Source of the DNA: Hysterangium stoloniferum | Lineage: Eukaryota; Basidiomycota; Agaricomycetes; Hysterangiales; Hysterangiaceae | DNA: 64,000 nt | Direction: 5' to 3' | Assembly (NCBI GenBank): GCA_015178975.1 | Contig: WHVD01000033.1 | Coordinates: 62,001-126,000 of the forward strand | Shown: in pieces, positions 2,942-51,606 of the stretch | Layout: each line of letters opens with the position of its first letter | Numbering within the stretch: position 1 is the stretch's first letter | Made by a program: the position numbers and the translations under genes | Notes under the pieces: model-generated | What the model was told of the DNA's origin: nothing | The model's database searches: none | Seen by the model: only the letters and a program-made list of their open reading frames with translations

Positions 2942-3142
2942 GGTGTATGGAGTTCAGAGCGATGGGACCAGATCATTAAGACTTGGATGAGAGAGATATT
3001 CAGGGAGAAGCTTCGAGAACGATGGGGATGTAACGAACCTGGTCATAATTTATGTTATCGGGCTCCCGATGATGAGCAGCACATACATCTGTCTGCAAAC
3101 CATATAGAGATTTGGGTTGACGAGTGGGTGAGTAAAGTATAA
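2942..3142 (+). pseudogene. Inverted exon-1 fragment of the array gene
   Basis: This stretch encodes on the plus strand what all other copies encode on the minus strand: the middle and end of exon 1 (residues around REKLRERWGCNEP and HIEIWVDEW), followed by the intron-1 donor GTGAGT. It abuts a minus-strand exon 3 of the next copy at 3,143. Its wording (MREIF preceded by an IIKTW-like stretch) is closest to the copies starting at 10,115 and 15,927. Confidence 0.7.
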
Positions 3143-4018
3143 TGAGGCCGAAGCCAAGAATGTCATAAGCCTGATAGTGTGACCTTTGCCGCTCCTGAAA
3201 GAAAATATCGGGAAACTCTCTAAAACCACTGTCACTCTTCTCCGAATTTGAGGCAGATATGTAGGTCTACGACTCAGACATGAGTATTTCCAGTATATTC
3301 AATGATTGAAGTATCCCTACCTCGCTAAATCAACACTGTCTTGAACTAGTCTTCCCAGTTTTGGCAGCGTAAGATACTTGCGTAGAAACTTGCCAAGGGC
3401 ACCATGGTCCTGTAACAAACAGGCGATTTCCCGGTATATTGTCAGCTTTGCGATCAGCGAAGCTGTCCTAGCACCGTGAAGGAATTTCATCCCAACCCTT
3501 TCCAAACCGACTCCACAGTAATACCCGGGGCCAATGTCAATACTTGACATTGTCCCCTGGCTCCGCGAGATCATTCCCCAGTCATTGGCATGACTGCAAT
3601 AGGGGCTGAGGTTGGATGTCGTGTTGGTGGATATTTTAACAACATTCGGTGGGTCATGGTAGCCAGTTTCTCCTTGACACTAAAATGCGCAGCATGTGAC
3701 ACACATCGCATAGAAATACCATTATACTTTGCTCACCCACTCGTCAACCCAAATCTCTATATGGTTTGCAGACAGCTGTATGTGGTGCCTACCATCGGGG
3801 GCCCGATAACATAAATCATGGCCGGGTTAGTTACAACCCCATCGTTCTCGAAGCTTCTCCCTGAATATTTCTCTCATCCCTTTAACGATCTCGTCCCGTT
3901 GCTCTGAACTCAATACACCAGGGGACACTAGGGGTGGGAGTTCCTCCATGTCTTCAAGGTCGATCCCAGCCCTTGCCGAATCGTGATTCCCCGGAGTCGT
4001 CTCGTTGGAAGTAGACAT
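3143..4018 (-). pseudogene. Array gene, copy I (exons 1-3, broken)
   Basis: First exons of the six-exon array gene. Exon 1 starts at 4,018 and has one in-frame stop after WGCN (near 3,827). Exon 2 is open through GYYCGVGLERVG to about 3,317. Exon 3 begins after a 54-nt-class intron and is cut at 3,143 by the inverted exon-1 fragment. Start choice: the same MSTSNE context as in other copies, with a TATA-like CATAAAAG about 40 bases upstream. Function is unknown. The premature stop and loss of exons 4-6 make it a pseudogene. Confidence 0.7.
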
Positions 4019-8104: not shown

Positions 8105-8197
8105 TCTTTGTAAGGTTCGGCTTTGTAGATAGCGTAATCCTTCAGTTGAGCTCTTACGAAGAGGAACGAACAGAGTAGGAATAGGCTCCAATTCGAA
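8105..8197. mobile_element. Ty3/gypsy LTR fragment
   Basis: About 90 bases match the LTRs of the element at 24,685-29,006 (shared stretch GAACAGAGTAGGAATAGGCT). The fragment sits against exon 5 of copy II and truncates it. No partner LTR is nearby, so this is a relic of the same family. Confidence 0.7.
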
Positions 8198-10115
8198 AAA
8201 GTCAATGCGATTATTCGCTCACCACACACAATGAGATCCCAATTAGGACTCATGTCAGTCAGAATAAGACTGGTAGGACAGTTTCATGGACGGATGTAAG
8301 ACGGTGCTGGAAGACAAAATATAGGGAACATACCGTACCATGGGCCCGATGAATGAAGAAACCACATTCAGCTGGTTGATGTGATCGGTGAGAAGTGTGC
8401 TGTCGTCGAAGAAGGTTTGCAAGGAGTGAATACACTGATACAGTGAAAGTGATGTCCCCAACTGAATATGAAGTGTCAATGATACTATATGCTTGTCTAC
8501 GTCGTCCAATAAAATCCTCAATACAGCTCCAGCAATATCTCGAAACCATCCATCTTGGTGGATGCAACACAAGAGAAGCCGTATAGGATGTCTATAATGG
8601 GGAGATAGTCGTAGGTGACTTTGTCTGTTATTGTTTTGGTGGGCAGGATGAAATAATGTCATGTTGCGACGCACGGGTGTAACCAGAATTTGATGTAACC
8701 TCTAATCGCCTTGAGCTCCTCTACAGATAGTTGACGAACGTGGCAGATAGCTTCCACGATATGCACAAGGCCGATAATATATTAAAAATAGTATGAGTTG
8801 ACTCTATTGCAATACACAATATACAAGGGTTTAATAAGCTTGTAATAAAAGTACTTTGTGTCTCAATATCTTGTGTCAGTTAGTGTAGCACCTCCTGACA
8901 ATATAGGTTGGATGCTCTGGGAGGTGTATAGTGGTTCTGACACACATTAACCTCCAAATGCATGGTCCACAATTAGCATCTTCATATGAAAAGTTGCAAT
9001 AATTGGTGGACTCCCCCTATAAAAAGGTGTGTTTCATCATCAAATTTAACATAATAGTCCAGGAATCACCAAATCCTGTTAGATAACAAGCAGATTGTAT
9101 GATAAATGTTGATGCAACCTCATCCAAGTTAGTGTGCAGCGGTGACTTGACTATAACGTTGTACAGTGATGACCTAATCGCAGGTGATGCGTGTCTATCT
9201 AACCAATGGACGCCGGGGCAGTAAATGAAGGCCGAAGCCAAAGATAGAAAAAGTCGGGAAGTGTAACCTTTGCTACTCAGCTGCATGTGAAGTGAAGACA
9301 TCCAGGAATCTTCTAAAACCCTTGTCGCTCTTCTGCGAATTTGAGGCGGATATGTGGGTCTATGACTCAGACATGAGTATTTCGAGTGTATCAAGTGATG
9401 GACACTGAGTTATCAACCTCACTAAATCAACGCTGTCTTGAACTAGCCTTCCCAGTCTTGGCAGGGTGAGATTCTTGTGTGGAAACTTGCTAAAGACCCC
9501 GTCGTCTTGAGACAGTTGACTCATTATTTGCTTATATATTGTCAACTTTGCCATCAGCGAGGCTTTCTTTACACTGTGCAGGGCGTTCATCCCAAACCTT
9601 TCCAAACCAACTCCACAGTAATACCCAGGGCTAATTTCAACACTTGAAGATGTCCCAAGACTCCGTGAGATCATTCCCCAGTCCTCGGCATGACTGCGAT
9701 ACGGACTGAGGTTGGATGTCGTATTGGTGGATACCGTAACAACAGTAGGTGGGTCATGGTACATCGTTTCTCCTTGACACTGAAATGTGCCGCATGTGAC
9801 ACAGATCACATGGAAATAGCATTATACTTTACTCACCAACTCGTCAACCCAGACCTCTATATTGTTTCCAGCCAGTTGTATGTGCTCCTCGTCATCGGGG
9901 GCCCGATAACATAAATCATGGCCGGGTTCATTACATCACCATCGTTCTCGAAGCTTCTCCCTGAATATCTCTCTCATCCCAGTCTTAATGATCTGCCGTC
10001 GCTCTGAACTCCATACACCTGGGGGGGCTAAGGGTGGTAGCTCAACGCCTTCAAGGTAGGTTTGAACTGTGGCTTCATCGTGATTCCCCAGAGTTGTCTC
10101 ATTGAAAGCAGACAT
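8198..10115 (-). pseudogene. Array gene, copy II (exons 1-5, broken)
   Basis: Exon 1 is 9,837-10,115 (93 codons) with one in-frame TGA near 9,936. Exon 2 is 9,418-9,779, exon 3 is 8,675-9,359 with an unrelated insert at about 8,780-9,020, exon 4 is 8,334-8,624 (fully open, same 291 nt as the intact copy), and exon 5 starts at 8,269 but is cut by an LTR fragment at 8,197. Introns 1, 3 and 4 keep GT/AG and their usual lengths. Exon 6 is absent. The protein family is unknown. In this copy intron 2 happens to be readable and gives a leucine-rich-looking tail, which is not evidence of an LRR. Confidence 0.75.
8780..9020. other. AT-rich insert within exon 3 of copy II
   Basis: About 240 bases missing from other copies interrupt exon 3. 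The insert carries a short inverted pair (CACCTCC at 8,889-8,895 and GGAGGTG at 8,920-8,926) and a TATAAAAAGG-like stretch near its right side. It could be a small non-autonomous element or solo LTR, but no clean termini or target duplication were found. Confidence 0.35.
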
Positions 10116-14409: not shown

Positions 14410-15927
14410 CTAGTCACGGCTAGTGCAAATGTATTCAACACATTTATGGGGACAACTGAGGAGCTCGCGGCGATAATGAAAAGTGACTATATAGTTCTTA
14501 CATAGATTCAAACCATATAGATTTATAAAATTTGCAACCCCGGCTGCAATCCTGGTTTGGTTGAGATGTGTCGGTACCATCGAAGAGAAATGATTAGAAA
14601 GTGTGTCCAATCGATGGTATAAGACCTTTGTCAGGGCAACCATGTGCCTTCAACGCTGATAGGGGGGTCTAATTAGACCTCACCGACACACAAGTGGAAG
14701 GTGTGGCGACCACGCAAAGGCAGGAACGCGCGGTGAAATCTAAGAATTTAACCGAGTAATTGAAGAATTTGTCGTTGGTCGTGCCGCGCATAATGTCACA
14801 ATGTGGAAGAAGAGAAACGAGAATGGGGATGGTATCGTGGCTGCGCACCGTGGTCAACGCAGATTCGGGCTCGGAAAATCCAGGTATCAGCTTCAGAATC
14901 AATGCGATTATTCGCTCACCATACCCAAGGAGATCCCGATTAGGAGTCGTGTGGGTTAGAATGAGACTGGTGAGACAGTTTCGTGGGTGGATGTAAGACG
15001 GTGCTGGAAGATAACATATAGTGAACGTACGGGCACGTGAATGTCCAAGCCAAACATGTCATAACCTGCGTAGTGTGACCTTTGCTACTCCGCCGCATAT
15101 CAAGTGAAGACACCGGGAACATCTCAAAAACCATCGCTGCTCGTCTCCGAATTTGAGGTGGATATGTGGGTCTACAAAGACGTTGGTATTTCGAGTGTAT
15201 TCAACATTGACGCTGGTTATCCCTATTACATTAATTCAACACTCTTGAACTAGTCTTCCCAATCTTCGCAGGGTGAGATGCTTGTGTAGAACCTGGCTAA
15301 AGGCACCGTTGTATCGACACAATAAACTCATGATTTTCCCGTATGTTGTCAGCTTTGCCATCAGCAAAGCTTTCCTTGCACTGTGCAGGACTCTCATCCC
15401 AACCCTTTCCAAACCGACTCCGCAGTAATACCCGGGGCTAATTTCAATACTCGACAATGTCCCAAAACTCCGTGAGATCATTTCCCAGTCCTCGGCATGA
15501 CTGCGCTACGGGCTGAGGTTGGATGTCGTATTGATAGATACCTTAACAAGATTCGGTTGGTCATGGTAGCCCGTTTCTCCTTGACACTAAAATGCCCAGA
15601 TGTGACACAGAACACATAGAAATAGCATTATACTTTACTCACCCACTCGTCAACCTAAATCCCTATATGGTTTACAGACAGTTGTATGTGCTGGTCGTCA
15701 TCGGGGGACAGATCACATAACTCATGGCCGGGTTCGTTACAACCCCATCGTTCTTGAAGCATCTCCCTGAATATCTCTCTCATCCCCTTCTGAATGATCT
15801 GATCCCATCGCTTTGAACTCAATACATCTGGGGAAACTAAGGGTGGTGGTTCCTCAACGTCTTCAATATAGGACTCAGCCGTTGCCAAATCGTGATTCCC
15901 CAGAGTCATCTCGGGGGCAGTAGACAT
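14410..15927 (-). pseudogene. Array gene, copy III (internal deletion)
   Basis: Exon 1 is 15,643-15,927 with a stop replacing Trp near its end (reads NHIGI then stop). Exon 2 from 15,586 has a stop and a lost donor near 15,236. Exons 3 and 4 are fused by deletion (14,940-15,134). Exon 5 is 14,684-14,966, open and the standard 283 nt. Exon 6 starts at 14,625 after an AAAG acceptor and runs open to 14,410, longer than in other copies. Upstream TATA-like CTTTTATGG at about 15,970. Unknown function, clearly broken. Confidence 0.7.
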
Positions 15928-16780
15928 TGGTGGGTCGCCGTCGTACTTACACTCCAAAGGGATGTTGAGCTTTTATGGTAATTCCACCAAGGTACAGCCT
16001 TGTGGCTGTGCTTACACAGGATTCACAGCCTGTCACCCCTACCTTTGTAAATAACATCCCTCACCCTTCATAAAGGCTCCAGTGCACTAAGTTACCTTAC
16101 TAATTTCTTACACCTTCTGCTGAAGCTCACACAACATTTAATAATTTTTTAGTCAATTGTCACCCCATAGTATAATATTTCTGGCATTATTGAGTGTCAG
16201 AGTTGCAATGCAGTTTTTCTGACATTCCAGAAGTGGTATCGCCAAGCATAATATAAATGCACTCCAGAGCGATGCTCACTGGGTGCTGCATTCAAGTTGG
16301 CACCGTCAACTTCAGACTTTCTCTGGCAAGATTGCACACTTCCCATTTAAGTTTTTCAAAACTTTCAATGAGAAGGAATCTGGATCAATAATGGTCTACT
16401 CCGGTTAATGGTCACATGAAATGGCTTGAATTTTGTGAAATGTCTGAAGAAGACAAAGAGTAAGGTAAGACCAGAGTTCTCAGTGTAGACTTTATTGAGA
16501 TACATAACAGTCAAACTTGGAATATCTTTGATTGTGGCATGTCCATCAGAATTTGTATTAATAAACAGCATACATAACCCCATGCCAGGCAATACTTACT
16601 TACATCTAGCTTTATTATTACCTGTCTTGCCCAGTGGAATATTTCGCCCCAGGCTCAGATTCTTGATGTGTGGACATGGCTCTTCAATGCGATGATGACA
16701 ATGTAATCCATTGTGCGACTCATGCAGCTTGACCGATCACAGGTGGAGTTTGTCTGGCACATGCAGATTTACCATGCTGG

Positions 16781-17096
16781 AGTTAAAATAATCTGGTAGC
16801 AAGGGGGAGCAAAGTATGAGGACTCTCTATCTAGGAGCAAATGCCACTTAAGAGTAGAACAGTGTGGAGTAAACCAATGCTATAGCTAGGCTTCCAGATG
16901 AGGATCCACTCCTCAGCTGGGGTGAACTATATACTAGAATACATGGTCTGTGCACTGGTCTGTGCAGCAAATGTGTGCAACATGGAACTAGATGAACACT
17001 AAACTAAATATAACTATCATGTGAACCGGTAGGATCTAATCAGTCACAAGACAAGGTATGAGATCATCACTAATCGGACTATCCCGTACTCTAACA
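16781..17096. mobile_element. Solo LTR, probably Ty1/copia
   Basis: A 316-bp insert is absent from the equivalent place in sister units (compare about 4,790 and 10,905). It is bounded by the 5-bp duplication GCTGG (16,776-16,780 and 17,097-17,101) and has near-inverted ends AGTTA...TAACA. A diverged second copy forms about 2,640-2,941 beside copia coding sequence, which is why copia is the likely family. Confidence 0.8.
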
Positions 17097-17452
17097 GCTG
17101 GGAATGCTTGTATGTCCCCGTTTTCTGCTTTCTAACCGGCTCCATTGGGGCTGGCCATGACAGTCCCTCTTCTGTCCCTGATATTAATTCCAAGTTGATC
17201 ATCAGCTATTCTCATCACAAAGTGGGCAGAAGATATGCTGCTTGCCGGGGTAATACATCATAATGTAATGACTCCGGGGAAAGTGTTCAGTGCAGCAGAA
17301 AAAATAGAATACCACTTGTGTCACTCTCGACGACAATAAAACTTCGGTATGCTAGCAACAGTCCGAAAAGGACATGAATTCCCTTCAAAGACAGTGGCAA
17401 AGGCCGCACGTGGTCTTGGACTGGTTCAAGAATTATTAATGAAGTCGTACTG

Positions 17453-18398
17453 TTGACAAACTGGATATTTCACTGACAAGGAGAGACAACTTACCATGAA
17501 CCTTCGAGTATAGTTGGGATGCCAGGGAGTCCACGAACGCCACATCCTGCCTCACCCCGTATCTCAGTCATACCATGGACTGGGGAATGGTCTCACAGTA
17601 TTTTGGGTTGATGGGTTTTTGATTTAGAGTTGAAATGTGGCAAGACTAGGCAGACTAATTCAACAGAGGATTGATTGAATAAGGTAGGGATAGCTTAGCG
17701 TCATTGAATATACTCGAAATCCTCACATCTTCGTAGAACCACGAATTCTGGAGGGAACGTCGATGATTTTATGCCTGTTCCGCTGGTATTCACTCTATAT
17801 ACAGCGGAGAGATCACATTGGCAAGCCGTTATTTTATAATACTGCCGCCAAGCCACCACTAAACACCAACCTTGATGATGTCGCATCGACATTTATCATG
17901 CAAATTGCCCGAAATCTATCAACATTTGATGGTCAAGATACTTCACTCATTGGTAGGTTTGCGTATATCGTGGAAACCATCTCCCACGTCCGTCAGCAGT
18001 GTGGAAGTGACTTCGATCAGAGGCTACTTGAATTCTTGTTATAACAGTGCATCGCACCATCGCACCTCATCCTGCTGACAAAAACCATTGTCATCAGAAT
18101 AGCCAGTAACGACGTTGAGTTACCCAAGATCCTAGTCAGCTATTCGGTTGCAACCACCAAGATTTATGGTTTCGACATGTTGCTGGAGCGGTATTCAAGA
18201 TTATGGTGTGAAGCAATTTCAGAGCGCATATAATCACTTCTTATTCTTAATGCAGTTCTGTGCGGAGACGAAAGCTGGATCCATGATCCCTTTGAATTTG
18301 TAGGGCTCGTGTTTTGTGACTAATAATTAAATATGTTGTAGGACTAGATATATATATATCACAGGCAATGATTATTCCCGGACCATTCTTGAACCGAA
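17453..18398 (+). other. Inverted segment of the array unit
   Basis: Here the exon-2/3-like paralogous sequence lies on the plus strand: DWGMVSQYFG near 17,576, and LNTNLDDVASTFIMQIARNL followed by AYIVETISHVRQQC at 17,850-18,005. In unit III the same segment (11,400-12,725) is on the minus strand. Both flanks continue in normal orientation (AATGAAGTCGT on the left, GGCTCACACTATTCA on the right), so this is a simple inversion of about 0.95 kb. Confidence 0.75.
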
Positions 18399-19894
18399 CC
18401 GTGGGCTCACACTATTCACCCATTGCTGTGGCTGTTCAATCTGATGATGCAAAGGTAGATTACGGATTGTGAAGTACTGTGAGTCCTTGCGAATGTCAAA
18501 GCTGACATCTGACGGTGTCTCCTCGGCGAGCACCATTATGGCGACGAACCCACTAGCATTGTTTGATGAAACGGTATGGAAGCCACATAATTATGTTCCG
18601 GGGGTTAGGCTCCGGAAAAGGAAGATGTAATTTGAATTCGTCAACGGTGTCGACACACCAGTGAAAGGTGTAGAGACTAACGAATAAGAAGGAACAGGGG
18701 ATGACAACTAACGTTCAAGAGGCCCACGGATCTAGTCGAATAGCTCTGTAATATTAGATAGAATCAAATAACCTTTTCGCTACTACTCGCAATGAAATAA
18801 TTCAAACATGACAATTGGTGGAATGAACTCCAGTCAACTGAAATTGGAGCAGCAGGAGGGGAGTGAAATAAATTATCGTGGCATGTAGTATGACGTTGAC
18901 GACTGAAACATTGAAACAGAAGACAAACGAGAAAATCTTGGGGAATGACTGCTCCACGCGGTGGGTCGTGGGTATTCTTCAGCTCTTCGTTGATATTTGA
19001 TTCCCCCTGACATGACCACGAGCTACTTTCCTCTTAACCAAAGTGAAAGCTCACGACATGTGTAGAAATGTCGGTGTCTTTATCATGGTGTTGTCCATTG
19101 GTTTGTTCCCGGCTTCCTGTTCTCCCAAACAAAGGACACGACAAGAATGTTAGGACTTGAGAGGCGCTAGTGGTGTTCAATTGACACTGTTACTGCTAGC
19201 ATATGCGATGTCATTTCAGCGAGGGGTAGTCCTCGGAATGTATTCAACACCAATCTAGAGAACCCCGCAGCGATCATTACAAGTGACTATCTTCGCTTTT
19301 AAATTGTTGCCAAATTATGTACCTTCATACAACTCTCAAGTTCGCGTTCTGTTTGAATTAATTGTAATTTATAAATAGGATGTCAGTCTAGTCACGGGTG
19401 GTGCCCGCAAGTGTATTCAATGCATATATGGCATCAACGTGTGCAACATGCAGAGCTCACCGCAAAGGTGAAAAGTGACTGTATGCGCTCTTATATTTGC
19501 TCGACGTATGGCAGCTGTATTGTCAAGTTTTCAATGGAAGAGCATTAGTTTAAGGAATTCCCCCAACATATTGACTCGCAGTGTGAAGGCCCTCGGTTTC
19601 ACGATCATGGATCTTGTTATTGAACACTGGCGAAGATATGATGAGCCTGAACAAGACATGGATCAAAATGGCGACGGGGGAGGACTTTTTCAAACATTCA
19701 GTAATATCTCATTTAAAGCATATCTTGTTCATGATTCGAATGTTATCCTGGGTACGGCTGGTGGCCCCAAATGTATTCAACACATGGAGGGGTACAACTG
19801 CAGAGCTTGCGGCGATAATACATAGTGACTATATGCGTTCTTACATAGGCTCAAATCATATAGCTTTATAACATCTACAGCCCTGGCTGCAAAG
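18399..19894 (-). repeat. Array unit IV, middle segment
   Basis: Colinear with 12,720-14,409 minus the DIRS insert. It carries the same internal block repeats, including a plus-strand frame at 19,475-19,825. Those frames are interrupted differently in each unit and no gene is supported. It lies directly 3' of the intact gene at 19,895. Confidence 0.5.
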
Positions 19895-21908
19895 TCAGTT
19901 GACGAAAAGGCGACGGTATTGGGCTACTCCTGGTTTGGTTGAGAAATGTGTCCGGATTAGCCAAGAGAAACGAATAGGAAGTGTGTCCAATTGATGGTGG
20001 AAGACCTTTTTCAGGGTAACCATGTTTTCCAAACTGTTATGGAGTTCTAATTATACCCTACCGACACACAAGTGGAAGGTGTGGCGACCACGCAAAGGAA
20101 GGAACGCGCGGTGAAATCTAAAATTTTAAGCGAGTAATTGAAGAATTTGTCGTTGGTCGTGCCGCACATAATATCACAACGTAGAAGAAGAGAAACGAGA
20201 ATGGGGATGGTATCGAGGCTGCGCACCGTGGTCAACGCAGATTCGGGCTCGGAAGATCCAGCGATCAGCTTCAGAGTCAATACGATTATTCGCTCACCAT
20301 ACCAAAGGAGATCCCGACTAGGACTCGTGTGGGTCAGAATGAGACTGGTAGGACAGTTTCGTGGGTGGATGTAAGACGGTGCTGGAAGATAAAATATAGT
20401 GAACGTACCGTATGATGGGCCCAATGAACGAAGAAAGCACTTTCAGCTGGTTGATGTGATCGGTGAAAAGCGTGCTGTCGTTGAAGAAGGTTTCCAAGGA
20501 GTCAATACTTCGATTCAGTGAGCTCGACGTGTGCCAATCAAGATGAAGTGTCGATGACGCTACATGCATGTTTATGTCGTGCAATAAAACCGTCAAAACA
20601 GCTCCAGCGATATCTCGAAACCATGCATCTTGTTGGATGCAACACACGAGAAGCCGTATAGGATATTCAAAAAATCTAAGTCGTTGTGTCTGATATTCTC
20701 TGTTATGGTTTTGGTGGGAAGGATAAAATGGTGTGATGGCACGACGCACGGTTGTAACCAGAATTCAATGCAACCTCTGATCGCCGTGAGCTCCTTTACA
20801 GATAGTGGACGCATGCGGCAGATCGCTTCCACGATAAGAACAAGGCGGAAAAGGGGCCCAGCAAATCTTGATAGAGAACGGGCGATGTGCATGATAAATG
20901 TTGATGCAACCTCATCAAAGTTGGTGTGCAGGGGTGACTTGACTAAAACGTTGTATAGTGATAACGTCATCGCAGTTGACGCGTCGGCAGGTGACGCAGC
21001 TCCATCTAACCAATAAACGCCGGGGCAGTAAAAGAAGGCCGAAGCCAAGAATGTCATAAGCTGGGTAGTGTGACCTTTGCCGCTCCCCCGTGAAAATATC
21101 GGGATACTCTTTAAAACTTTCGTCGCTCTTCTCCGAATTTGAGGTGGGTATATAGGTCTACGACTCAGATATGAGTATTTCCAGTGTATTCGATGATTGA
21201 GGTATCCCTACCTCGCTAAATCAGCACTGTCTTGAACTAGTCTTCCCAGTCTTCGCAGCATAAGATGCTTGTGTAGAAACATGGCAAAGGCACCATTGTC
21301 TTGTAACAAACGGGTGATTTCCTGGTATATTGTCAGCTTTGCGATCATGGAAGCTGTCTTAGCACTGTGAAGGACTTTCATCACAACCCTTTCCAAACCG
21401 ACTCCACAGTAATACCCGGGGCCAATGTCAATACTTGACATTGTACCCTGACTCCGCCAGATCATTCCCCAGTCATCGGCACGACTGCAATAGGGGCTGA
21501 GGTTGGATGCCGTGTTGGTGGATCTCTTAACAACGTTCGGTGGGTCATGATAGCCCGTTTCTCCTTGACACTGAATGCGCAGCATGTGACACACATCGCA
21601 TGGAAATAGCATTATACTTTACTCACCCACTCGTCAACCCAAATCTCTATATGGTTTGCAGACAGCTGTATGTGTTGCCTACCATCGGGGGCCCGATAAC
21701 ATAAATCATGGTCGGGTTCGTTACAACCCCATCGTTCTCGAAGCTTCTCCCTGAACATCTCTCTCATCCCTTTAACGATCTCGTCCTGCTTCTCTGAACT
21801 CAATACACCAGGGGAAACTAAGTGTGAGAGTTCCTCAATGTCTTCAAGGTCAATCCCAGCCGTTGCCGAATCGTGATTCCCCGGAGTCGTCTCGTTGGAA
21901 GTAGACAT
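19895..21908 (-). CDS. Array gene, copy IV: intact six-exon ORF, 577 aa, unknown function
   Basis: The only copy open from ATG to stop. Exons: 21,627-21,908; 21,212-21,570; 20,750-21,157; 20,409-20,699; 20,062-20,344; 19,895-20,005. Introns are 56, 54, 50, 64 and 56 nt, each GT...AG. The lengths sum to 1,734 nt (577 codons plus TGA). Four of the junctions shift to another raw frame and each lands in the open one, and the same sites recur in other copies; this is the main evidence for strand and structure. Residues 1-94 are acidic then basic (REKLRERWGCNEP). Residues 95-214 carry CQGETGYHDPP and GYYCGVGLERV. Exons 3-5 are helix- and leucine-rich (IVLTLKLIAGSS, FLCVVATPST). No signal peptide or known domain was recognised. 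A CATAAAAG box precedes the ATG by about 45 bases, and the start context is CACCAATG. Substitutions versus the copy at 42,873 look neutral, so function is doubtful. Confidence 0.65.
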
Positions 21909-21958: not shown

Positions 21959-24466
21959 CCGCCACCAGTCGGAGAGTTAATTCCATGAAGGCACAGCGTT
22001 ATGGCCGTACTTACACGGGATACACAGCATTTCATCCACAAGGTTCCCTCACCTTCCTTGAACCTTATAGGCTCCACTGTCACGAGGTGACTACTTCTTA
22101 CGCCTTCCGCTGAAGGCTGACACAGCATATAATAATGGTTCAGTCGATTGTCACCTCATAGTATAGCATTTCTCAGCCTCAGAGTTGAAAGCAAAACCGC
22201 TTTTCTGATATCGAGAGGTGACATTGCCATGTACCATATAAATGCAGTCCAGAGCGATATCCAATGGTTGCTGCCTTCAGGTTGCCGCTGTTAGCCTCCG
22301 GCTTTGTCCAGAGAGATTGCACACTCCCTGTTTGATTTTGAAAACTTTCACTGAGGAGAAACCCAGGGCCAGTGATGGCCTAGGTCGCATTAATGGTAAG
22401 CAACGTACTTTTTTCATTTGCCCTCGCCATATCTTGATTGTGACGAATCCATCCGGGTGTGTATTAACACATTCTAAATATAATCTCGTCTCAGGCGACA
22501 CTGACAGCTAGCCTTATCATTGTCTGTCTGTCTGAGTGTAATGGTTCCCCCCAGGCTCACACGATTGATGCGTGGACATTGTTCTTCAAAGCGACGATGA
22601 CACGGTAGATCAAGCATTGTGACCCACTCGTAGTTTGACCCATTGCAGGCAGAGCTCTTCCGGTACGTAAAGATTCACCACGCTGGCTATGCTAATACAT
22701 TCCCCTTTTCTGCCATCTTTCTGCCCCCTTCGGTGCTGCCAATTCCACTGTGCCCTTTCAGCTCCATATGGGTCGCTGTAACAATCCTCTTCGTTCCCAC
22801 ACGATGGCCATTCATCGCAGCCCTGCCTTTGTCACCACAACCGATCCTTCATTTTCTCGTTTTGGCTAATTTGTCAGTCAAGGAATGGACGAGGGAGCCT
22901 TAGTCTTAACATACTTCCGAGATGATAATCGGCTGTTGTCGTCACAAAATGGGCGGAATATGCATCACAGTGTCCTGGCTCTCAAATAATCTCAGGTTCA
23001 GCAGGATAACAACAGAATTATGTCTTGGGAATACCATTTGGATCACTCTTGGCGACAATTATACTTCGCTATGCTGGTATCGGACCAAAAACGACAGCAA
23101 TTTCTTTCAAAGACAGTGGCAATGGTCGAACCCGGTCTCACACTGGTTCAGAAACCGTCCAGGAATATTTGCTGCCATGAGACGTATATATTATTAGTCA
23201 CAAAACACAAAGCCCTACAAAGCCAAAGGTATCATCGACACAATTCTCATCAGCAATGAATTCCAGAGTTGCAGTGAGTATAAGAAGTGATTGTATGAGC
23301 TTTCAACTCGACTCAAATGATGTAGGTTTATGCAACTATTAATGCCGCCAAAGCGAGCTGGAAAAAAAGGAAAAAGGAAAGATATTATCCTCTTCCTTGC
23401 TTGCTTTCAAAAAACCAGTGAAAGGTGTGGCCATCGTGCAAAGGAAGGAACGAGGATAGAAACTAATTCCCAAGACATTCACGTTTGAACCAGGTCGTTG
23501 AGATGCGCATTGTCCCTTAATGTGCAAGGAAACAAACAAGAATGGTGAGGGGAGAGAGCCCTGGTACATGCAGATTCTTGGTCAGATGGTCCAGCTATTA
23601 GTTCAGTATAGCCCCAATTATTCCTTTGAGAGCCGAAGCGGTCTCCAAGTCATTTACATCAGAAATAGACTGGTGAGGTAATGTCATGAAAAATTGAAAG
23701 ACAATACTGCAAGAGAAAAGATGGTAAACATAGTGTATTAAGGACTTCACAAGCAAGGAACCCACCCAAGTTGATGTGAATTGAGACCAGCACCGTGTTA
23801 TCATTGAAGAAGGTTAGCAAGGCGAAAAATTTCCACGACAGTGATTGCTATGTCGAAAAATGAATATGACCCCCCGAGGATGTCATATTTATGTTTATTC
23901 CATCCACCACGATAGTGAATATGGGTTAAAGGCCCTTGTTTATTGCAAGGGTTTGGGGTATAAGATCGCCGACCTGGAGATTGAACATGGATTTTGAAGA
24001 TAAGATTCGCGTGAACGAGAGAAATGTTGTCATGGATCAGTGATTATTCCTACTGTTCTCTGTTATTATTTAATGACTTCCTTCGTGTAATCCTAGGTAA
24101 GTGACGTGGGAACCGAGGTGGCGGGGCTTCTTCGAGATTTGGTAGTGGTATTCAATATGATGGGATGGTCGTTAATGAATCGGATGTGGTTCTAGCAACG
24201 ACTAGAACTTGCCGATATATTCAACATGAGAGAGAGAGAGAGAGTTGTGGAGCATGCTGCGAGGGAAAAAGTGGCTGTATGCGCTCTTAAAATGGATCAA
24301 ACCTCTATGTGGCTTGAAAATACGGTTACAGATATGAAGAGAAATCATTAAAATAGAGTCAAATTGATCGAGAAAGACTTTCCCCTGGGCAACTATATTT
24401 CTTCAAAACTGAGACCATGTTAGAATTAGACGATACGGCACCAGTGAAAGGTGTCGCCACGACGCA
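21959..24466 (-). repeat. Array unit V, second half, variant b
   Basis: Colinear with 4,019-6,600 and 36,368-39,300. Minus-strand open pieces: 22,277-22,501 (NTHPDGFVTIK), 23,339-23,569 (FLCTMATPFTG, like the exon-5 end), and 23,598-23,804 (exon-4/5-like with an acceptor CACCAG). Stops and frame changes interrupt every candidate exon. It is CpG-rich compared with its sister at 36.4-38 kb. Upstream of copy IV it contains the promoter region. Confidence 0.6.
24228..24244. repeat. GA microsatellite
   Basis: An uninterrupted GA run of 8-9 dinucleotides, expanded relative to the equivalent site in unit VI (about 38,970). Confidence 0.8.
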
Positions 24467-24679
24467 TCAGAAGCCATTGGCGGTGAGAACTAGACCTTCA
24501 TAGTCAATCATGGATCCTTCGTTGATTGAGTTGCGGATCGCGTCCCAATGGATTAGACTAGAAATGAGAATGGCGGTGGTATTGAAGCTGCGCACCGTGG
24601 TACACGCGAGTCCAGTCGAACACCGATTATTTCTTCGGCGCATACATAATGTAGCAACTCTGTGTTCGATGTGACGATG
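24467..24679 (-). repeat. Array unit V, middle segment, part 1
   Basis: Sequence like 39,240-39,480, reading on the minus strand VRSFNTTAILISSLIHWDAI, a diverged repeat of exon 5 (VRSLDTIPILVSLL). It is split from its continuation at 29,012 by the Ty3/gypsy element. GCAAC at 24,680-24,684 is the left target duplication. Confidence 0.6.
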
Positions 24680-24684
24680 GCAAC

Positions 24685-24920
24685 TGTAAGGTTCAGCTTT
24701 AAAGATAGCGTAATCCTTCGGTTTGAGCTTCTTAAGAAGAGGCACGAACAGAGTAGGAATAGGCTCCAATTTGAAATAACTACTCTAGTTAATGGGTGGC
24801 TTCCCTATTTATGCTAGCATTCGTAGACTAAACCCCCTAACGACAGATAATAGAAATGAAACAGTGTAATGATCGGAAAATTATCTACTCTCTCTTTACC
24901 CCCTGAGACAACGGCGGTAG
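24685..24920 (-). repeat. 3' LTR of gypsy element 1
   Basis: Matches 28,731-28,965 (shared CCCCTGAGACAA and TTTATGCTAGCATTCG). The outer end is TGTAAGG on the plus strand, next to GCAAC. Shorter than the 5' LTR. Confidence 0.8.
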
Positions 24921-28730: not shown

Positions 28731-29006
28731 TGTATGGTTCAGCTTTAAAGATAGCATAATCCTTCGGTTTGAGCTTCTTACGAAGAGGAATGAACAGAGT
28801 AGGAATAGGCTCCAATTTGAAATAACTACTCTAGCTAATGGGTGTCCCTATTTATGCTAGCATTCGTAGACTAAACCCCCTAACGACAGATAATAGAAAT
28901 GAAACAGTGTAATGATCGGAAAATTATCTACTCTCTCTTTACCCCCTGAGACAATGGCGGTAGACTGCTCCGTGCCAAGTCCGCCACCAGGTCCGCTCCC
29001 GTTACA
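28731..29006 (-). repeat. 5' LTR of gypsy element 1
   Basis: 276 bp, reading TGTAACGGGAGC...AACCATACA on the minus strand. The outer edge is followed by the duplicated GCAAC at 29,007-29,011. Confidence 0.8.
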
Positions 29007-30399: not shown

Positions 30400-31335
30400 T
30401 TATACCATCTGGAACCCCAGCTGCAAAGTGAGTTGAATGAAGGGCGACGCTATTTGTTTCCTTGTGGTTTGGTTGAGATGTGTCAGCATTATCGAAGAGA
30501 AATGATTAGCAAGTGTGTCCAATTGATGGTGCAAGACCTTTGTCAGGGCAACCATGTTCCTCCACCACTGATATGGGGGTCTCGTTAGACCCTACTGACA
30601 CAAGTGGATGGTGTGGCGACCACGGAAAGGAAAGAACGTGCGGTCAAATATAAATGCTCAAGCGGGTAACTAATAGATTGGTCATGTCTCGAAATGTGCA
30701 TGATGTCACAATGTGGAAGAAGAGAAACGAGCAGGACGATGATATCGAGGCTTCGCACTGTGGTACACACAGATTCGGGCCTGGAAGATCCAGCTATCAG
30801 TTTCAGAGTAACCACCATTATTATCTCGGCAGAATGCAAGAGTGTGGAATTTGGACTCGCTTCCATCAGAATCAGACTGGTAGGAAAGTTGCATAGGTGG
30901 ATGTAAGATGGTGCTACAAGGTCAGATATTGTGAACACACCGTACGATGGGCCCAATGAGTGAAGAAACCACATTCAGCTGGTTGATGTAATCGGTGAGA
31001 AGCATGCCATCATCGAAGAAAGTTTGCAAGGACCGCATACTCCAATACAGTGAATATGATATTTCCGAATCAATATGACGTGTCAATGACGCTGTATGCA
31101 TATTTATGTCGTCCACTAAAGCCTTCAATGCAGCTCCAGCAATATCTCGAAACGATGCATCTTGGTGGATGCAACACACGAGAAGCCGTGTAAGATAGTC
31201 ATACGATGTCAGTCGGTGTGGGTAATTTTGTCTGTTATTGTTTGTGGATGAAATGATGTGATGTCACAACGCACGATTGTATCCAGAATTCAATGCAAGC
31301 TCTGATCACCATGAGCTCCTCTACAGATACTTGAC

Positions 31336-31640
31336 TGTTGAAATAGGCTCTTGCACTCTAATCCTATGTCAAGTCTATGTCAAGCTTACATGGCCATACC
31401 AGGATGTGTTGTCCCTGACATGTATACTAATGGTTGAAGCTTATATTAGCAACAACCTATTTAACTGCTACAGTTGCTATCCCATACCTCAGTTGAACCA
31501 TTACATGTATCAACTGAGGTATGTAACTACTGTTACTTTCATGATGTGTTATTTAACTAAAGCCTACTGTAGCATATTTCATTACAGGTAATAAATATAG
31601 TTGAACCATTACGTGTATCAACTGAGTGTATTTTGTTACA
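31336..31640 (+). repeat. 5' LTR of the copia element
   Basis: 305 bp, TGTTGAAATA...TTTTGTTACA. It contains two near-identical internal copies of a GTTGAACCATTAC...TATCAACTGAG motif. The same final ATTTTGTTACA recurs at 35,277-35,287, next to the second TTGAC. Confidence 0.8.
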
Positions 31641-34600
31641 GGTTATGGACCCCGACCCACGTTGCTGAACCAATCCGAACTCAAACCGAAAGCCGACATA
31701 TACAGCATTATTGAGAAACTATCGTCGCACCAGAAACCAACCAACAGAACTTACTGAACCTGAACCTGACAAACTGAACCAAGTAAACTTGGCCCCCAAC
31801 TGACTAAAATTGATAAGTTGATAACACGGGAACAATCATGTCCACGCAACCCTCTCTCTTTATACTCGAATCCGAAGAATGTTTCGATGGCCACAATTGG
31901 CTCACATGGCATGACACTATTTGGTCCATCGCAGGTGCATGGGGCATTCAAGGATACCTAGATGGGACGATTCAGAAACCATCCCCACTCATAACAAACA
32001 CCATACCCAAATGAACGAGTTACTGGGGCTCCAAGAACCTATTGCCCGAGGAGTAGGAAGAACATAATGCGTACACGAAAGCCATGATTGATTTAAATGT
32101 CAAGAATCCTGTTGGGCATGGCATTAAACCCACCGACACCACAGGAGAAGTGTGGTCTGCCTTAAAAGACATCCACAACACGTCATCCGATATAGGACTG
32201 CTGAATGCCAACAACAAATTGCACGCAATTAAGCATGTCAACAGCACTGATATCTTAAGCCATTTTGCATGCCTGCATGAAGGATGGGCAAAGGTTAATG
32301 CACAAGGTGGTAAAGTGGATGACTCAATGTTCCACATGATCATAATAGCATCAATGGCTAAAGAATGGGACCTAGTTATTGGCACATTGTTCTCACTAAA
32401 AACATTGAAAGAGGTAATTGCAAATCTCACCCTTTACAACATGACACTTGCCCAACACAGAAAGCAAACCCCGCAGACATCCCAAGCACTTGCAACTACA
32501 AGGCCGGGTCATTCTACAGATGTGTGCTCCAACCCCAACTGTAAATGTGTGGGGCACACAATCGACAGGTGCTTTAAACTTGGTGGGGGAATGGAAGGTC
32601 AATTCCCAGATTGGTGGAAGAAGAAAGGCACCATGACCAGTGGGAGTCAAAATGCGCAAGGAAGTCAAAATGTGCAGCAACAAAAACCACTGGTCAACAC
32701 ACCTTCAAAGCCGATCGCAAACATGGCAGTCGTGCCATTGACACCATTCACCTCCAGCTCTGGGGAGTTCCATGCTTTCATGATGCAGACAGAATCCACC
32801 ACCTCCACCGTCATAACCTATGCCGACTCGGCAGCGAGCAATCATTTTTTTATTAACATAGAAGACTTTGGGTCATACATACCTTATGCTGTAAAGGACA
32901 GGTCCACAGCCCATAGTGGTAGTACCTTCCCGATATGCGGAAAGGGGACAGTCAGTAAATGATGCATTTACGAGGGATGTGTCATCAATCTCATCTTCAA
33001 AGACGCATTGCATTACCCAACATTATCTCACAATCTTGTGTCTTCAGGAAACTTGACAACAACGGGTGCTATGCAACCTTTGGAGGGGGAGGCATTACCT
33101 GAACAATGTACAAGATCAATGTCTTCCCACCAACCGGCCCTCTTCTGAATAGTGCTCGCCAGCTCCCAAATATACAAGTATAATCAATGTGCAGATGAAC
33201 GCACTCCCAATCAAATCCCATGACCAGCCAACAGATGTGGATAACTGGCACCGATGTCTCGGCCACGTAAACTATGATACGGTTGAGTGAATGTTGAAAA
33301 ATGGCATAGTCCACGCAATGAGTATCACCACACTGACACCTCAACTGGGCACATGTGAGGGGTGCATCATGGGAAAGCACATGCACCACCCTTTCTACAC
33401 CAACAATGAATGCGAAACCACTATTGGTGAAGGTGTCTATATCGATCTCTGGGGACCATCCCGAGTACAGTCTATTGGCAGGAGAAGTTATATGGTGCCA
33501 TGTGTGGATAGGTATACCAGTCACCACAAACTGTTCTTCCTGTCAAGCAAGGAGGCCAAGACAACCCTATCTGCTTTGAAGCAATACACTGCACTTACCA
33601 AGTGCCAGACAGGGATGAAAGTGTGCAAGATACATACTGACGAAGGCACTGAGTTCTTCAATAATGCATCATGGACTACATACCTAAGTGAGCAGGGCAT
33701 AGTTCATGAATCCACCACTGCCTACTCTTCCCCATCGAACAGCATTGTCAAGTGGTGCCATCATACGATTATCAAACACATTCGGGTATACCTATACAAA
33801 AACACCCTGCCTCCATCTCTGTGGTGTGAAATAGCAGCAGCAATCGGATATGTTATGGATTTCATACCCACTGCCAGAAACCCCAATGTGACACCCTTTG
33901 AGCTATGGAATGGAAAAAAGCCTGATATCTCCCATCTCCGACCTCTTGGGTGCATAGTGTATGCCAAATTCCCATTGCTGCTGGTGGGGGACTCAGCAAG
34001 TTGGACCCGTGATCCATTAAGGGAGTACACATTGGGTACTTCAGATGCGATGCCTATTGTATCTATGACCCAGAGACCTGCTGCGTTTACATTATTTTCG
34101 AAAAGGGCCACATCCAGAAAATGCTGACCAGCCTGTCAAGTGAGGGGGAGAATATGATCGACCATGTTACAATTGACATGCTGACCAGTGAAACAGACGA
34201 TACTCACAGGGGCCTAGCGCCAGTGCACGAAAAGGCTTCCCCAACTAACACATCATAGCCACCTACCTCAGCACTGACCACTGCAGAACTCGCACCACGC
34301 CATTCATTGCGTGTACCTATACCCATGAGAGCACTCAAATACTCAATTGCATTGGAGGAAAACATACGAGATGCCCAAGCAGCTGGAGAAGCTTGGGCAT
34401 ACAATCACGACAAGAGCACCCTCCATACTATTACCAAGGCATTACCAGACCCGACAAACATGTGGCTCCCTAATACCTACAGTGAGGCGATGACACTCCC
34501 CAATACATGGGAAGAACTGATAAACAAGGAACTTGTGATGATGAGGAAATGCGGAATTTGGACAGTAGTGGACTGCCCTGAGGATGCTAGACTTGTGAAA

Positions 34601-35287
34601 ACCCGCTGGACCTTTGCAAATAAATACAACGGCAATGGCAATTTTATCACACGAAAGGCACACCTCATTGCTAAGGGGTTTATGCAAATTCCTGGCATTG
34701 ATTTCTTCGAAACCTATGTATGCCTCAGTCATACGATACGAGTCATTGCAAATGAACCTCACCATCACTGCAGCAACAGACATGGAAGCCTGGCAAGTCG
34801 ACTACGTCACAGCATATCTCAACTCTGTCCCTCAAGCTACTACATACATAGAGTTACCTGATGGGGTGAAGGAAGTGGGAAAAGTTGGATGGCTGGAGAG
34901 GACGCTGTATGGCACAATGGATGGTGCTAACAGCTGGTGGGGTACTCTGGACAGGGAAATGGGCGAGTTAGGCTATTACCACTCAAAAGCTGACCCATCA
35001 GTACACTCTAGACATGCAAACGGAAATACAACCATCACAAGCACTTACATGGATGACACCACCAGAATATCATCCTCTAAAGAGGAAGACGAACAAGCAA
35101 AAGAAGAACTAGGTCAGACCTATGAGACAAAAGACCTGGAGGATGCCAACCTTGTCTTGGGGATATGTATCGACAGGGATAAGGAGCACGGAACAATAAG
35201 AATATCACAGCATGCATACCTCAAACGCGTTCTCAAGCATTTTGGAATGATGGAATTGAACCCCCCATCCAACACCATTTTGTTACA
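31336..35287 (+). mobile_element. Ty1/copia element in exon 3 of copy V
   Basis: Flanked by the 5-bp duplication TTGAC (31,331-31,335 and 35,288-35,292), with a TG start and a CA end. Parts in order on the plus strand: 5' LTR; gag (from about 31,838; zinc knuckle CSNPNCKCVGHTIDRC near 32,530); protease (YADSAASNHFF near 32,820); integrase (CEGCIMGKH near 33,350, THTDE-like IHTDEGTEF near 33,630); reverse transcriptase (TRWTFANKYN near 34,600; DDT at YMDD near 35,050). The 3' end is marked by only about the last 11 LTR bases. Broken, with several interruptions. The insertion is younger than the array duplication it interrupts. Confidence 0.85.
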
Positions 35288-36367
35288 TTGACGCACATGG
35301 CAGATCACTTCTACAATATACACAAGGCCGATAATAAGTGAGAGACTATGATAATCGGCGATATGTATGATAAATGTTGATACAACCTCATCCAAGTTGG
35401 TGACTTCACTAAAACATTGTAGAGTGATGACATAATTGCAGATGACATGTCTCAATCGAACCAATAAATGCTGGAACAAGTGAAGGCCAAAGCCAAAGAT
35501 AGCATAAGTTGGGAAGTGTAAGCTTTGCTACTCTGCTGCATTGGAAGTGAAGAAACCAGGAAATCATCTAAAACCATCATGGCTCTTCTCCGAATTTGAG
35601 GGGGGTATGTAAGTCTACAACTCAGACATGAGTATTTGAATTGTATTCAACATTGATGCTGCATTATCCCTACCTCATTAAATCAACACTCTCTTGAACT
35701 AGCCTCCCCAGTCTTGGTAGCATAGGATGTTTGTGTAGAAACTTGCTAAAGGCACCATTGTCTCGGAACAAATGGGTGATTTCCCCATATATTATCAGCT
35801 TTGTGAACAAAGCTGTCCTAGCACTGTGAAGGACTTTCATCCCAACCCTTTCCAAACCGACTCCACAGTAATAGCCGGGGCCAATGTCAATACTTGACAT
35901 TGTCCCCTGACTCCACAAGATCATTCCCCAGTCATCGGGATGACTGAAATGGGGGCTGAGGTTAGATGTCGTGTTGGTGGATATCTTAACAACATTCAGT
36001 GGGTCATGGTAGCCTGTTTCTCCTTGACACTGAATATGCAGCATGTGACACATATCACATGGAAATAGCATGATACTTTACTCACCCACTCGTCAACCCA
36101 AATCTCTATATGGTTTGCAGACAGCTGTATGTGTTGCCTACCATCCGGGGCCTGATAACATAAATCATGGCCGGGTTCGTTACAACCCCATCATTGTCAA
36201 AGCTTCTCCCAGAATATCGCTTTCATCCCTTTAATGATCTTGTCCCATTTCTCTGAACTCAATACACCAGGGGAAACTAAGGTTGGGAGTTCCTCAATGT
36301 CTTCAAGGTTGATCTCAGCCATTGCCGAATCATGATTCCCCTGAGTCATCTCATTGGAAGTAGACAT

Positions 36368-40864: not shown

Positions 40865-42873
40865 CTATATGCGGACGCTATTGGGCTCCTCCTGGTTTGG
40901 TTGAGATCTGTCGGCATTATCAAAAGAAACATGATTAGTAATTGTGTCCAATTGATGCAAGACCTTTGTCAGGTAGCCATGTTCCTCCAACACTGATATG
41001 GGGGACTAATTAGACCCTACCGACACACGAGTGGAAGGAGTGGCGACCACGCAAAGGAAAGAACGTGCTGTCAAATGCAAACCCTCAAACAGCTCCCTGA
41101 TAAATTGGTCATGGGTCGAGCCGCGCATGGCGTTACAATGTGGAAGGAGGGAAACGAGAATGACGATGGTATTGACACTGCGCACTGTGGTACACGCAGA
41201 TTCGGGCTCGGAAGATCCAGCTATCAGTTTCAGATTCAATGTGATTATGCGCTTACCACACGCAAGGATATCCCAACTAGGACTCGTGTGGGTCAGAATG
41301 AGACTGGTAGGACAGTTTCATGGGCGGATGTAAGACGGTGCTATCAGGGAAAATCTTGTGACCGTACCTTGTGATGGGCCCAATGAGCGAAGAAACCACA
41401 TTCAGCCGGTTGATGTGATCGGTGAGAAGCGTGCTGCCGTTGAAGAAGGATTGTAAGGAGTCAATACTCCAATACAGTGAGTTGGACGTGTCCCTATCAA
41501 GATGAAGTGTCAATGAAGCTATATGCATGTTTATGTCGTCCAATAAAACCCTCAATACAGCTCCAGCAATATCTCGAAACCATGCATCTTGGTGCATGCA
41601 ACACCCGAGAAGCCCTGCAGGATAGTGATAAAAAGGAAATAGTCGCCGGTGAGTTTGTCTGTGATGGTTTTGGGAAGGCTGAAATGGTGTGATGGCACGA
41701 CGCACCGTTGTAACCAAAATTCAATGCAACCTCTGATCGCCGTGAGCTCCTTTACAGATAGTGGACGCATCTGGCAGATTGCTTCTATGATAAAAATAAG
41801 GCCGAAAAGGGGTAAGCGCCGATCAAATTCTGAGACATAATGAGATTCTGATAGATAACGGGCGATGTTTATGATAAATGTTGATGCAACTTCATCCAAG
41901 TTGGTGTGCAGCGGTGACTTGACTAAAACGTTGTACAGTGATGACGTAATCTCAGGCGACGCGTCTCTATCTAACCAATGAACACCGGGGCAGAAGCAGA
42001 AGGCCGAAGCCAAGAATGTCATAGGCTTCATAGTGTGACCTTTGCCGCTCCCGTAAGAAAATATCGGGAAACTCTCTAAAACCACTGTCGCTCTTCTCCG
42101 AATTTGAGGCGGGTATATAGGTCTATGATTCAGATATGAATATTTCCAGTGTATTCACTGACTAAGGTATACCTACCTCGCTAAATCAGCACTGTCTTGA
42201 ACTAGCCTTCCCAGTTTTGGCAGCGTAAGATGCTAGTGTAGAAACTTGCCAGAGGCACCATCATCTCTTAACAAGCGGGTGATTTCCTGGTATATTGTCA
42301 ACTTTGCGATCAGCGAAGCTGTCTTAGCACTGTGAAGGACTTTCATCCCAACCCTTTCCAAACCGACTCCACAGTAATACCCGGGGCCAATGTCAATACT
42401 TGACATTGTCCCCTGACTCCGCGAGATCATTCCCCAGTCATCGGCATGACTACAATAGGGACTGAGGTTGGATGTCGTGTTGGTGGATATCTTAACGACA
42501 TTCGGTGGGTCATGGTAGCCCGTTTCTCCTTGACACTGAATACGCAGCATGTGACACATATCACATGGAAATAGCATTATCCTTTACTCACCCATTCGTC
42601 AACCCCAATCTCTATATGGTTTGCAGACAGCTGTATGTGTTGCCTACCATCGGGGGCCCGATAACATAAATCATGGCCGGGTTCGTTACAACCCCATCGT
42701 TCTCGAAGTTTCTCCCTGAATCTCTCTCTCATCTCTTTAACGATCTCGTCCCGTTGCTCTGAACTCAATATACCGGGGGAAACTAAGGGTGGGAGTTCCT
42801 CAATGTCTTCAAGGTTGATCTCAGCCATTGCCGAATCGTGATTCCCCTGAGTCATCTCATTGGAAGTAGACAT
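40865..42873 (-). pseudogene. Array gene, copy VI (nearly intact, one stop)
   Basis: Exons: 42,592-42,873; 42,177-42,535; 41,706-42,122; 41,368-41,658; 41,021-41,303; 40,865-40,963. Introns 56, 54, 47, 64 and 57 nt, all GT...AG. Frame is kept from ATG to a TAG in exon 6 except for one in-frame TAG at 42,233-42,235 in exon 2, where the other copies read Lys (FLHKHLTL). It has three more codons than copy IV in exon 3. Exon 6 is shorter through a local deletion. Upstream TATA-like CTTTATTCC variant at about 42,917. Function unknown; a recent pseudogene or a read-through allele. Confidence 0.75.
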
Positions 42874-50562: not shown

Positions 50563-51606
50563 TTATACCATCTGCAACCCCGGCTGCAAAGTGAGTTGAA
50601 TAAAGGGCGCTATTGGGCTCTTCGTGGTTTGGTTGAGATGTGTCGGCATTATCGAAGAGGAATGGTCAGAGAGTGTATCCAAATGATGGTGCAAGACCTT
50701 TGTCAGGGCAACAATGTTCATCCACCACCGATATGGGGGTCTACTGAAACACGAGTGGAAGGTGTGGCGACCACGGAAAGGAAAAAACGTATGTTCAACT
50801 CTAAATGCTCGATCGGGTAATTGATGGATTGGTCATTTCTCCAACCGCGCATAATGTCACAATGTGGAAACAGAGAAACGAGCACGGCGATGGTGTCGAG
50901 GCTGCGCACTGTGGTACACGCAGATTCGGGCTCGGAAGATCGAGCTATTAGCTTCAGAGTGATCAACATTATTTTCTCGGCAGACATCCAGAGCGAGTAA
51001 TCTGGACTCGCGTCCATCAGAATCAGGCTGGTGCGACAGTTTCATTGGGGGATGAAAGACGGTGCGATAAGGTAAAATATTATCAACGTACCTTGCGATG
51101 GGCCCAAAGAGTGAAGAAACCACATTCAGCTGGTTGATGTGATCGGTGAGAAGCGTGCTGTCGTCGAAGAAGATTTGCAAGGAGTAAATACTCCAATACA
51201 GTGGATGGGATGTCCACAAATCAAGATGAAGTGCCAATGACGCTATATGCACGTTTATGTCGTGCACTATACTTCAATACAGCTCCAGAAATATCTCGAA
51301 ACCATGCATCTTGGTGGATGCAACACACGAGAAGCTCTATAGGATATTCATCATGGTTAAGTCGTTGTGTCTGATATTCTCTGTTATGGTTTTGGTGGGA
51401 AGGATGAAATGGTGTGATGGCACGACGCACTGTTGTAACCAGAATTCAATGAAACCTCTGATCGCCGAGAGCTCCGCTACAGATAGTTGACGCACGTGGC
51501 AGATCGCTTCCACGATATACCAGAGGCCGATAATGATCCGGGGATTATGAGATAAGGTTAAATAACCGGCGATGTGTATGATAAGTGTTGATGCAACCTC
51601 ATCAAA
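50563..51606 (-). pseudogene. Array gene, copy VII (5' truncated)
   Basis: Retains the end of exon 3 (51,431-51,606), exon 4 (51,092-51,380; 289 nt instead of 291, so frameshifted near GAVLKYS), exon 5 (50,745-51,027) and exon 6 (50,563-50,697, ending LQMV then TAA). Exons 1-2 and the start are missing; the array ends abruptly at 51,606 inside exon 3. Splice sites are conserved. Confidence 0.7.

Follow-up and report, generated by a model that had tools for sequence, protein, structure and literature searches.

A six-exon gene of Hysterangium stoloniferum and its large family of mosaic copies

The gene at positions 19895-21908 of the DNA analysed here (a stretch of 64,000 nt, called the window, which is part of contig C257 in a genome of 111 Mb and 554 contigs) is best read as a member of a very large, shuffling family of protein-coding genes that would generate diversity among intracellular products, perhaps for recognition or genetic conflict. 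We assign this reading as a whole a probability of about 0.4. Its parts differ in strength: the anatomy of the family is very probable, and the role in recognition or genetic conflict, suggested by the way in which variation is distributed along the copies, is tentative.

A six-exon gene in a tandem array

The gene lies on the minus strand, with its ATG at 21908 and a TGA stop at 19895-19897, and six exons joined across five GT-AG introns form a coding sequence of 1734 nt for a product of 577 aa (Table 1). An earlier note, made from the sequence alone, had proposed this model of six exons, five introns of 50-64 nt and a frame of 577 codons, and enumeration of the GT-AG chains in 19895-21908 bore it out: eight chains are open (four with five introns and four with six), and only one of them is 1734 nt long. 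The note had also stated that the introns stand at the same places in other copies, which was confirmed for introns 1-4 (43-45 of 45-46 copies) and more weakly for intron 5 (26/43). As a control, GT..AG was found in at least 90% of copies at just 1 of 4798 random exon position pairs. The sharing of splice sites, together with this rarity among random pairs, indicates that the six-exon observation is real and far from chance. At its 3' end the window copy is without the C-terminal tail of the family; its exon 6 is out of frame relative to that tail, and pieces resembling the tail were found in the two other frames.

Table 1. Gene, family copies and tandem period in the window. Under remarks, GT-AG counts are numbers of copies, indel counts give distinct indels that are multiples of three over all distinct indels, and pN/pS is from 23 close open copies.
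Feature	Positions	Strand	Remarks
Exon 1	21627..21908	-	282 nt; holds W60, C62, E64, H67, C70, H79; pN/pS 0.53; indels 3/5
Intron 1	21571..21626	-	56 nt, GTGAGT..CAG; GT-AG in 45/46 copies
Exon 2	21212..21570	-	359 nt; together with exon 1 the most constrained part; pN/pS 0.56; indels 3/5
Intron 2	21158..21211	-	54 nt; GT-AG in 45/46 copies
Exon 3	20750..21157	-	408 nt; variable, bulk of the length changes; pN/pS 0.91; indels 27/31
Intron 3	20700..20749	-	50 nt; GT-AG in 45/46 copies
Exon 4	20409..20699	-	291 nt; variable; pN/pS 0.89; indels 8/9
Intron 4	20345..20408	-	64 nt; GT-AG in 43/45 copies
Exon 5	20062..20344	-	283 nt; four helices in predicted model, mean pLDDT 70.8; pN/pS 0.69; indels 2/7
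Intron 5	20006..20061	-	56 nt; least conserved; GT-AG in 26/43 copies
Exon 6 with TGA stop	19895..20005	-	frame differs from the family tail
One tandem period	15928..21908	-	5981 nt; begins at the gene's ATG and stops short of the ATG of the next downstream copy
Partial family copy, exons 1-2 and start of exon 3	3134..4018	-	
Broken family copy	8194..10115	-	
Broken family copy, exon 3 cut, exon 4 missing	14515..15927	-	
Family copy split within exon 3 by a stretch with Copia-type ORFs	30472..36367	-	ORFs at about 31334-35284
Family copy, exons 1-5 present, frame broken in exon 2	41021..42873	-	
5'-truncated family copy, exons 3-5 in part	50745..51606	-	
Remnants of more distantly related paralogues, upstream of the gene	23414..24661	-	exon-4/5-like at 23414-23847, exon-5-like at 24476-24661; several matches weak (E up to 0.024)

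The seven main copies of the window all point in one direction, and follow each other at a step of 5.8-6.5 kb where no big insertion intervenes; relics of more distant paralogues also stand between them. The stretch at 17449-18403 (~955 nt) runs opposite to its surroundings, as judged against seven other loci (L051, L052, L053, L055, L056, L057 and L058) in which its relic exons have the same orientation as the main gene; in L058 both flanks are collinear. An inverted exon 1 fragment lies beside a family copy at 2930-3144, and its positions 2985-3144 are 92% complementary to 3720-3879.

Retroelement sequences were found at several places of the window. The segment at 24682-28965 (~4.3 kb) is bracketed by direct repeats of ~240 nt that are 94-99% alike and contains an aspartyl-protease ORF (RVP_2, E 7.7e-05); it is an apparently young element of LTR type. 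The ORFs that interrupt exon 3 of one family copy (Table 1) match a Copia-type gag (E 1.6e-12) and an integrase (E 5.5e-07, under the cut-off), and a scan of 30900-36000 around them revealed no direct repeats of at least 60 nt. A reverse-transcriptase ORF (RVT_1, E 1.2e-9), which we take to belong possibly to a DIRS-like element, is present at 46286-47428. A minisatellite with 7.6 copies of a 19-bp unit is located at 63627-63771.

Hundreds of places in the genome and many open frames

A search of the 111-Mb genome for a 22-mer from exon 4, allowing up to 2 mismatches, gave 514 places, and its reversed control none. A 300-base query made of exon 1 and intron 1 gave 534 first-look candidates, of which the best 40 were scored, and the exon-3 frame gave 1696, of which the best 150 were scored. 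Among the matches listed, family copies lie on at least 31 contigs and span the first 404 kb of the 754-kb contig C257 and nearly all of the 617-kb contig C388. More distant members with the same exon order and ~44-79% identity per exon are found on contigs C522, C367, C524, C539 and C157. A link between the family and telomeres was considered and set aside: an exact 24-nt telomere word is present on seven contigs and, among the 31 contigs listed with copies, C112 is the only one to carry it, this being a weak test.

The set of copies used below goes back to 71 candidates seeded on exon 2. Twelve of these had a 351-nt core identical to that of another candidate and were merged, and 13 without a match in one of exons 1-4 were dropped, which left 46 near-complete copies. 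Some of the merged candidates sit at distinct places (L021 on contig C316 versus L023; L044 versus L041). A guided spliced model, in which splice sites were allowed to move by up to 25 nt, was open from ATG to stop in 29 of the 46 copies, the window copy included, with the five introns at about the same places; no shift was needed in 18 of these open models, and in the others the shifts were mostly at intron 5. Since the copies were chosen by similarity to the window's own exons, mostly to the exon-3 frame, which favours open copies, 29/46 is an upper-biased fraction; it becomes 29/59 when the 13 dropped candidates, several of which are cut by a locus edge, are counted as not open. The earlier description of the gene as an intact copy among broken relatives thus holds within the window, where each of the six other main copies is either broken or partial (the spliced-model test shows this for two, cut or missing exons for the rest), but not genome-wide. 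One of the 17 copies without an open model, L046, loses its 5' end at the locus edge.

The products of the open models measure 541-648 aa, seven of them 615-618 aa. A shared tail with VINL or VINI is present in 11 of the 29 open models and is missing from the window copy and 17 others. Of the four C522 copies in the set, at ~50% identity to the window copy, two have kept an open frame together with the same introns 1-4.

Several individual loci deserve description. Two family genes stand head to head in L055 (5089-5928), with start codons ~840 nt apart, and L006 and L008 have exon 1-2 matches on both strands. In two distant members, L041 (2226-3224) and L044 (2262-3260), intron 2 has no in-frame stop and exons 2-3 form one frame of 332 aa; a form with a retained intron is possible in these loci. 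L059 contains an rRNA region that, as read by eye, has the order 28S-ITS2-5.8S-ITS1-18S of a fungus; this layout and the small introns point to a probable mushroom-type fungus. A match to the 5.8S family carries little weight in this respect, as the search that gave it also scored in 9 of 14 prokaryote controls.

Stops and frameshifts are selected against, amino-acid changes only weakly

Coding constraint was assessed through indels, stop variants and substitution rates. In 34 close copies, open or not, 43 of the 57 distinct exon indels are multiples of three (16/26 without exon 3) versus 3 of 25 in the introns; the window copy was the reference for this scoring, and two of the exon-5 'deletions' (275 and 315 nt) probably mark where two short loci end. 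The counts per exon (Table 1) place the multiple-of-three signal mainly on exons 3 and 4. Stop variants numbered 6, versus 36.2 expected at the missense rate (6 versus 25.4 without exon 3), the depletion not being significant in exons 1 and 2 taken singly (P 0.12 and 0.26, respectively). These data demonstrate that the family is under coding constraint, stops and frameshifts being selected against.

The constraint on amino acids is weak and is least in exons 3-4, as shown by the pN/pS values of Table 1 and by missense occupancies, relative to synonymous, of 0.70 for transitions and 0.86 for transversions. When 406 pairs of copies are binned by distance, the median dN/dS is 0.86 among the closest (9 pairs) and declines to 0.54 among the most distant (54 pairs). 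The introns have diverged by 0.07-0.12, which is close to the values for the codon positions of exons 1 and 2 (0.06-0.11). This intron-like divergence of codon positions and the dN/dS of 0.86 in the closest pairs would also fit genes that are largely relaxed.

The copies are mosaics of each other

Pairwise distances between copies in exons 1-2 are uncorrelated with those in exons 3-5 (rho -0.13 to 0.11), and correlations of 0.60 and 0.31 were obtained between exons 1 and 2 and between exons 4 and 5, respectively. In 32 copies with 254 sites, r2 is 0.189 at distances under 20 nt and drops to 0.032 at distances over 800 nt, which is about the 1/n background; in the same data, four gametes occur in a share of site pairs that grows with distance from 0.34 to 0.70, and a PHI-like permutation test gave P<=0.001. 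As equally distant copies that did not exchange sequence would not show a decay of linkage with distance, the copies are mosaics of each other; the extent of mosaicism could be inflated by assembly chimaeras.

Linkage was also compared along the locus, between site pairs less than 50 nt and more than 500 nt apart, in 29 loci, open or not, that are a different set from the 29 open models. It goes from 0.255 to 0.164 in the upstream flank and from 0.172 to 0.046 in exons 3-5; exons 1-2 (0.275 to 0.098) and the downstream flank (0.159 to 0.060) show an intermediate decay. The exchange may proceed by unequal crossing-over or gene conversion. Taken together, these results establish recombination between paralogues that keep their coding constraint, which is the property that defines a diversity-generating multigene family.

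A product without recognised domain

The statement of the earlier note that the product has no recognised domain, and with it the suggestion of a possible orphan gene family, stands after searches of Pfam, NCBIfam and PDB, which provided no usable relative: the 577-aa product had no match in Pfam to E 10 and none in NCBIfam, and neither the single protein nor an 8-member profile matched PDB. Of 8 members scanned with Pfam, one matched HAT_PRP39_C weakly (E 0.0026) and one matched Arterivirus GL (E 0.14), the window copy showing neither match; Pfam matched none of ten pieces from other members up to E 1. On the exon-2 reading frame, a hit to Zn_clus was rejected (E 0.15, under the cut-off, residues 6-21), the first 16 residues of that ORF being intron. 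With exon 2 as query, none of 10 pattern stretches was confirmed in the viral contigs of IMG/VR, and none of 199 in the prokaryotes of GTDB.

Eleven residues (W60, C62, E64, H67, C70, H79, H102, P104, P105, C370 and C531) are identical in all 29 open models; C62, H67, C70 and H79 make up an invariant C-x4-H-x2-C-x8-H pattern that may bind metal. Structure prediction yielded four helices for exon 5 in a model of modest quality, the best of five (pLDDT 70.8, versus 45.0-64 for the other four sub-models), and Foldseek found nothing better than E 0.57 for this model in PDB; a model of exons 2-3 was discarded (pLDDT 36). By hydropathy there is no signal-like N-terminal stretch, the highest 10-residue mean in the N-terminal 35 residues being 1.08. 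Segments of 19 residues with a hydropathy above 1.6 are absent from 19 of the 29 products; eight have one, L015 two weak ones and L034 four. The product is probably intracellular and mostly helical.

Alternative explanations

Three other explanations were weighed against the reading as a diversity-generating family. The gene could be the cargo or the own protein of an undescribed mobile element, its copies being the insertions of that element. The 514 places for one word and the presence of copies on at least 31 contigs, among the matches listed, are what such an element would produce; retroelements crowd the neighbourhood, many copies of the window are broken, and in L050 the gene is framed by two short imperfect inverted-repeat pairs (20 nt, 80%; 16 nt, 88%), which may be due to chance. 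However, the inverted pairs that frame the gene in L048 fall within an inverted copy of the family's own tail, no framing pair is seen among the 5 of 8 pairs listed for L049, and the retroelements sit between or inside the copies, separate from them. The repeat period differs as well, being ~4.8 kb in L045 and ~3.0 kb in L047 and L057 (22727 abuts 19776) versus 5.8-6.5 kb in the window, and such variation in period, with flanks that remain contiguous, speaks for segmental duplication rather than for an element with fixed ends. Finally, Pfam found no transposase, integrase or reverse transcriptase domain in the window product, in 8 members or in 10 pieces. The absence of a transposon domain and the variable unit sizes argue against the locus being part of a known transposon, the possibility that the earlier note had raised against its own reading; the unit may still have fixed ends. 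We consider a mobile element unlikely. A perfect 125-nt inverted repeat with a 10-nt spacer, present in L049 (162-421) upstream of a distant family member, is either a small inverted-repeat element or an assembly artefact.

The copies could also descend from a former gene that is now mostly dead and is carried passively by the duplication of repeat-rich DNA. A pN/pS of ~0.9 in exons 3-4 and the dN/dS of the closest pairs agree with such a decay, as do the 17/46 copies without an open model (one of them, L046, cut by the edge); on the other hand, stops and frameshifts are depleted in exons and not in introns, and two of the four C522 copies have stayed open, with introns 1-4 in place, at ~50% identity to the window copy. 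A dead family appears improbable. A family of killer meiotic drivers acting like the wtf genes of fission yeast, with many exons, many copies and fast change by gene conversion, would show the same population behaviour, namely a large family with mosaic copies and dead copies. The wtf genes have a many-exon structure and encode several membrane segments; consistent membrane segments are missing here, 19 of the 29 products having none at all (L034 with four and L015 with two weak ones are at the other end), and we hold drive of this kind to be very unlikely.

A family that would be selected for variety

On the reading as a diversity-generating family, new copies would arise through segmental and unequal duplication within DNA rich in retrotransposons; many of them would die, and those still alive would have their 3' half reshuffled by ectopic recombination or gene conversion. 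The product would combine a conserved N-terminal module (exons 1-2), with its candidate metal site, and a variable C-terminal helical part (exons 3-5), and allorecognition, defence or selfish drive are candidate roles. A fixed module joined to a shuffled, frame-preserving variable part fits a repertoire for recognition or conflict better than a housekeeping enzyme. A bolder version would see in these hundreds of recombining genes an intracellular recognition repertoire, with exchangeable helical 3' segments near linkage equilibrium attached to a fixed metal-binding N-terminal module, which would make it a fungal analogue of the shuffled repertoires of immune genes or antigens, drawn from a family without known domain; we regard this joint claim as doubtful.

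A family that is large, readable, barely constrained in its amino acids and freely recombining between loci has the features that characterise a system under selection for variety. If it is expressed, it would offer a new place to study fungal protein diversity and possibly self/other discrimination. For annotators there is a practical warning, as masking the family as a repeat would hide many likely genes.

Comparison with known systems

A literature search over titles and abstract openings found, among the papers listed, none on such a family. By the features that could be examined, the family is not a member of msg or wtf. According to abstract-level sources, wtf is the largest gene family of S. 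pombe and has been shaped by recombination, and the wtf drivers of Schizosaccharomyces resemble the present family in being high-copy and fast-evolving, with recombination between copies. The family described here differs in that its products are mostly soluble by hydropathy and about 540-650 aa long, and in its 514 places for one word. In the abstract-level accounts, the msg genes (major surface glycoprotein) of Pneumocystis likewise make up a large family with mosaic copies in a fungus. Their products are surface proteins and the genes are subtelomeric, whereas the present products have no signal-like N-terminal stretch by hydropathy and, in the weak telomere test, C112 alone among the 31 contigs listed with copies carries the telomere word.

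The family may resemble the helical repeats of the ARM/HEAT/HAT type, given the four-helix model of exon 5 and the HAT_PRP39_C match in 1 of 8 members (E 0.0026); 0 of 10 pieces match Pfam to E 1, and the best fold match is at E 0.57. Fungal allorecognition genes of the NLR/HET kind have a fixed N-terminal part and a variable C-terminal part. Unlike these genes, the window product contains no NACHT, NB-ARC, HET or repeat domain by Pfam, and nothing of that kind was seen in 8 members; what the family appears to share with them is the layout itself, a fixed N-terminal part followed by a variable C-terminal part under frame-preserving change.
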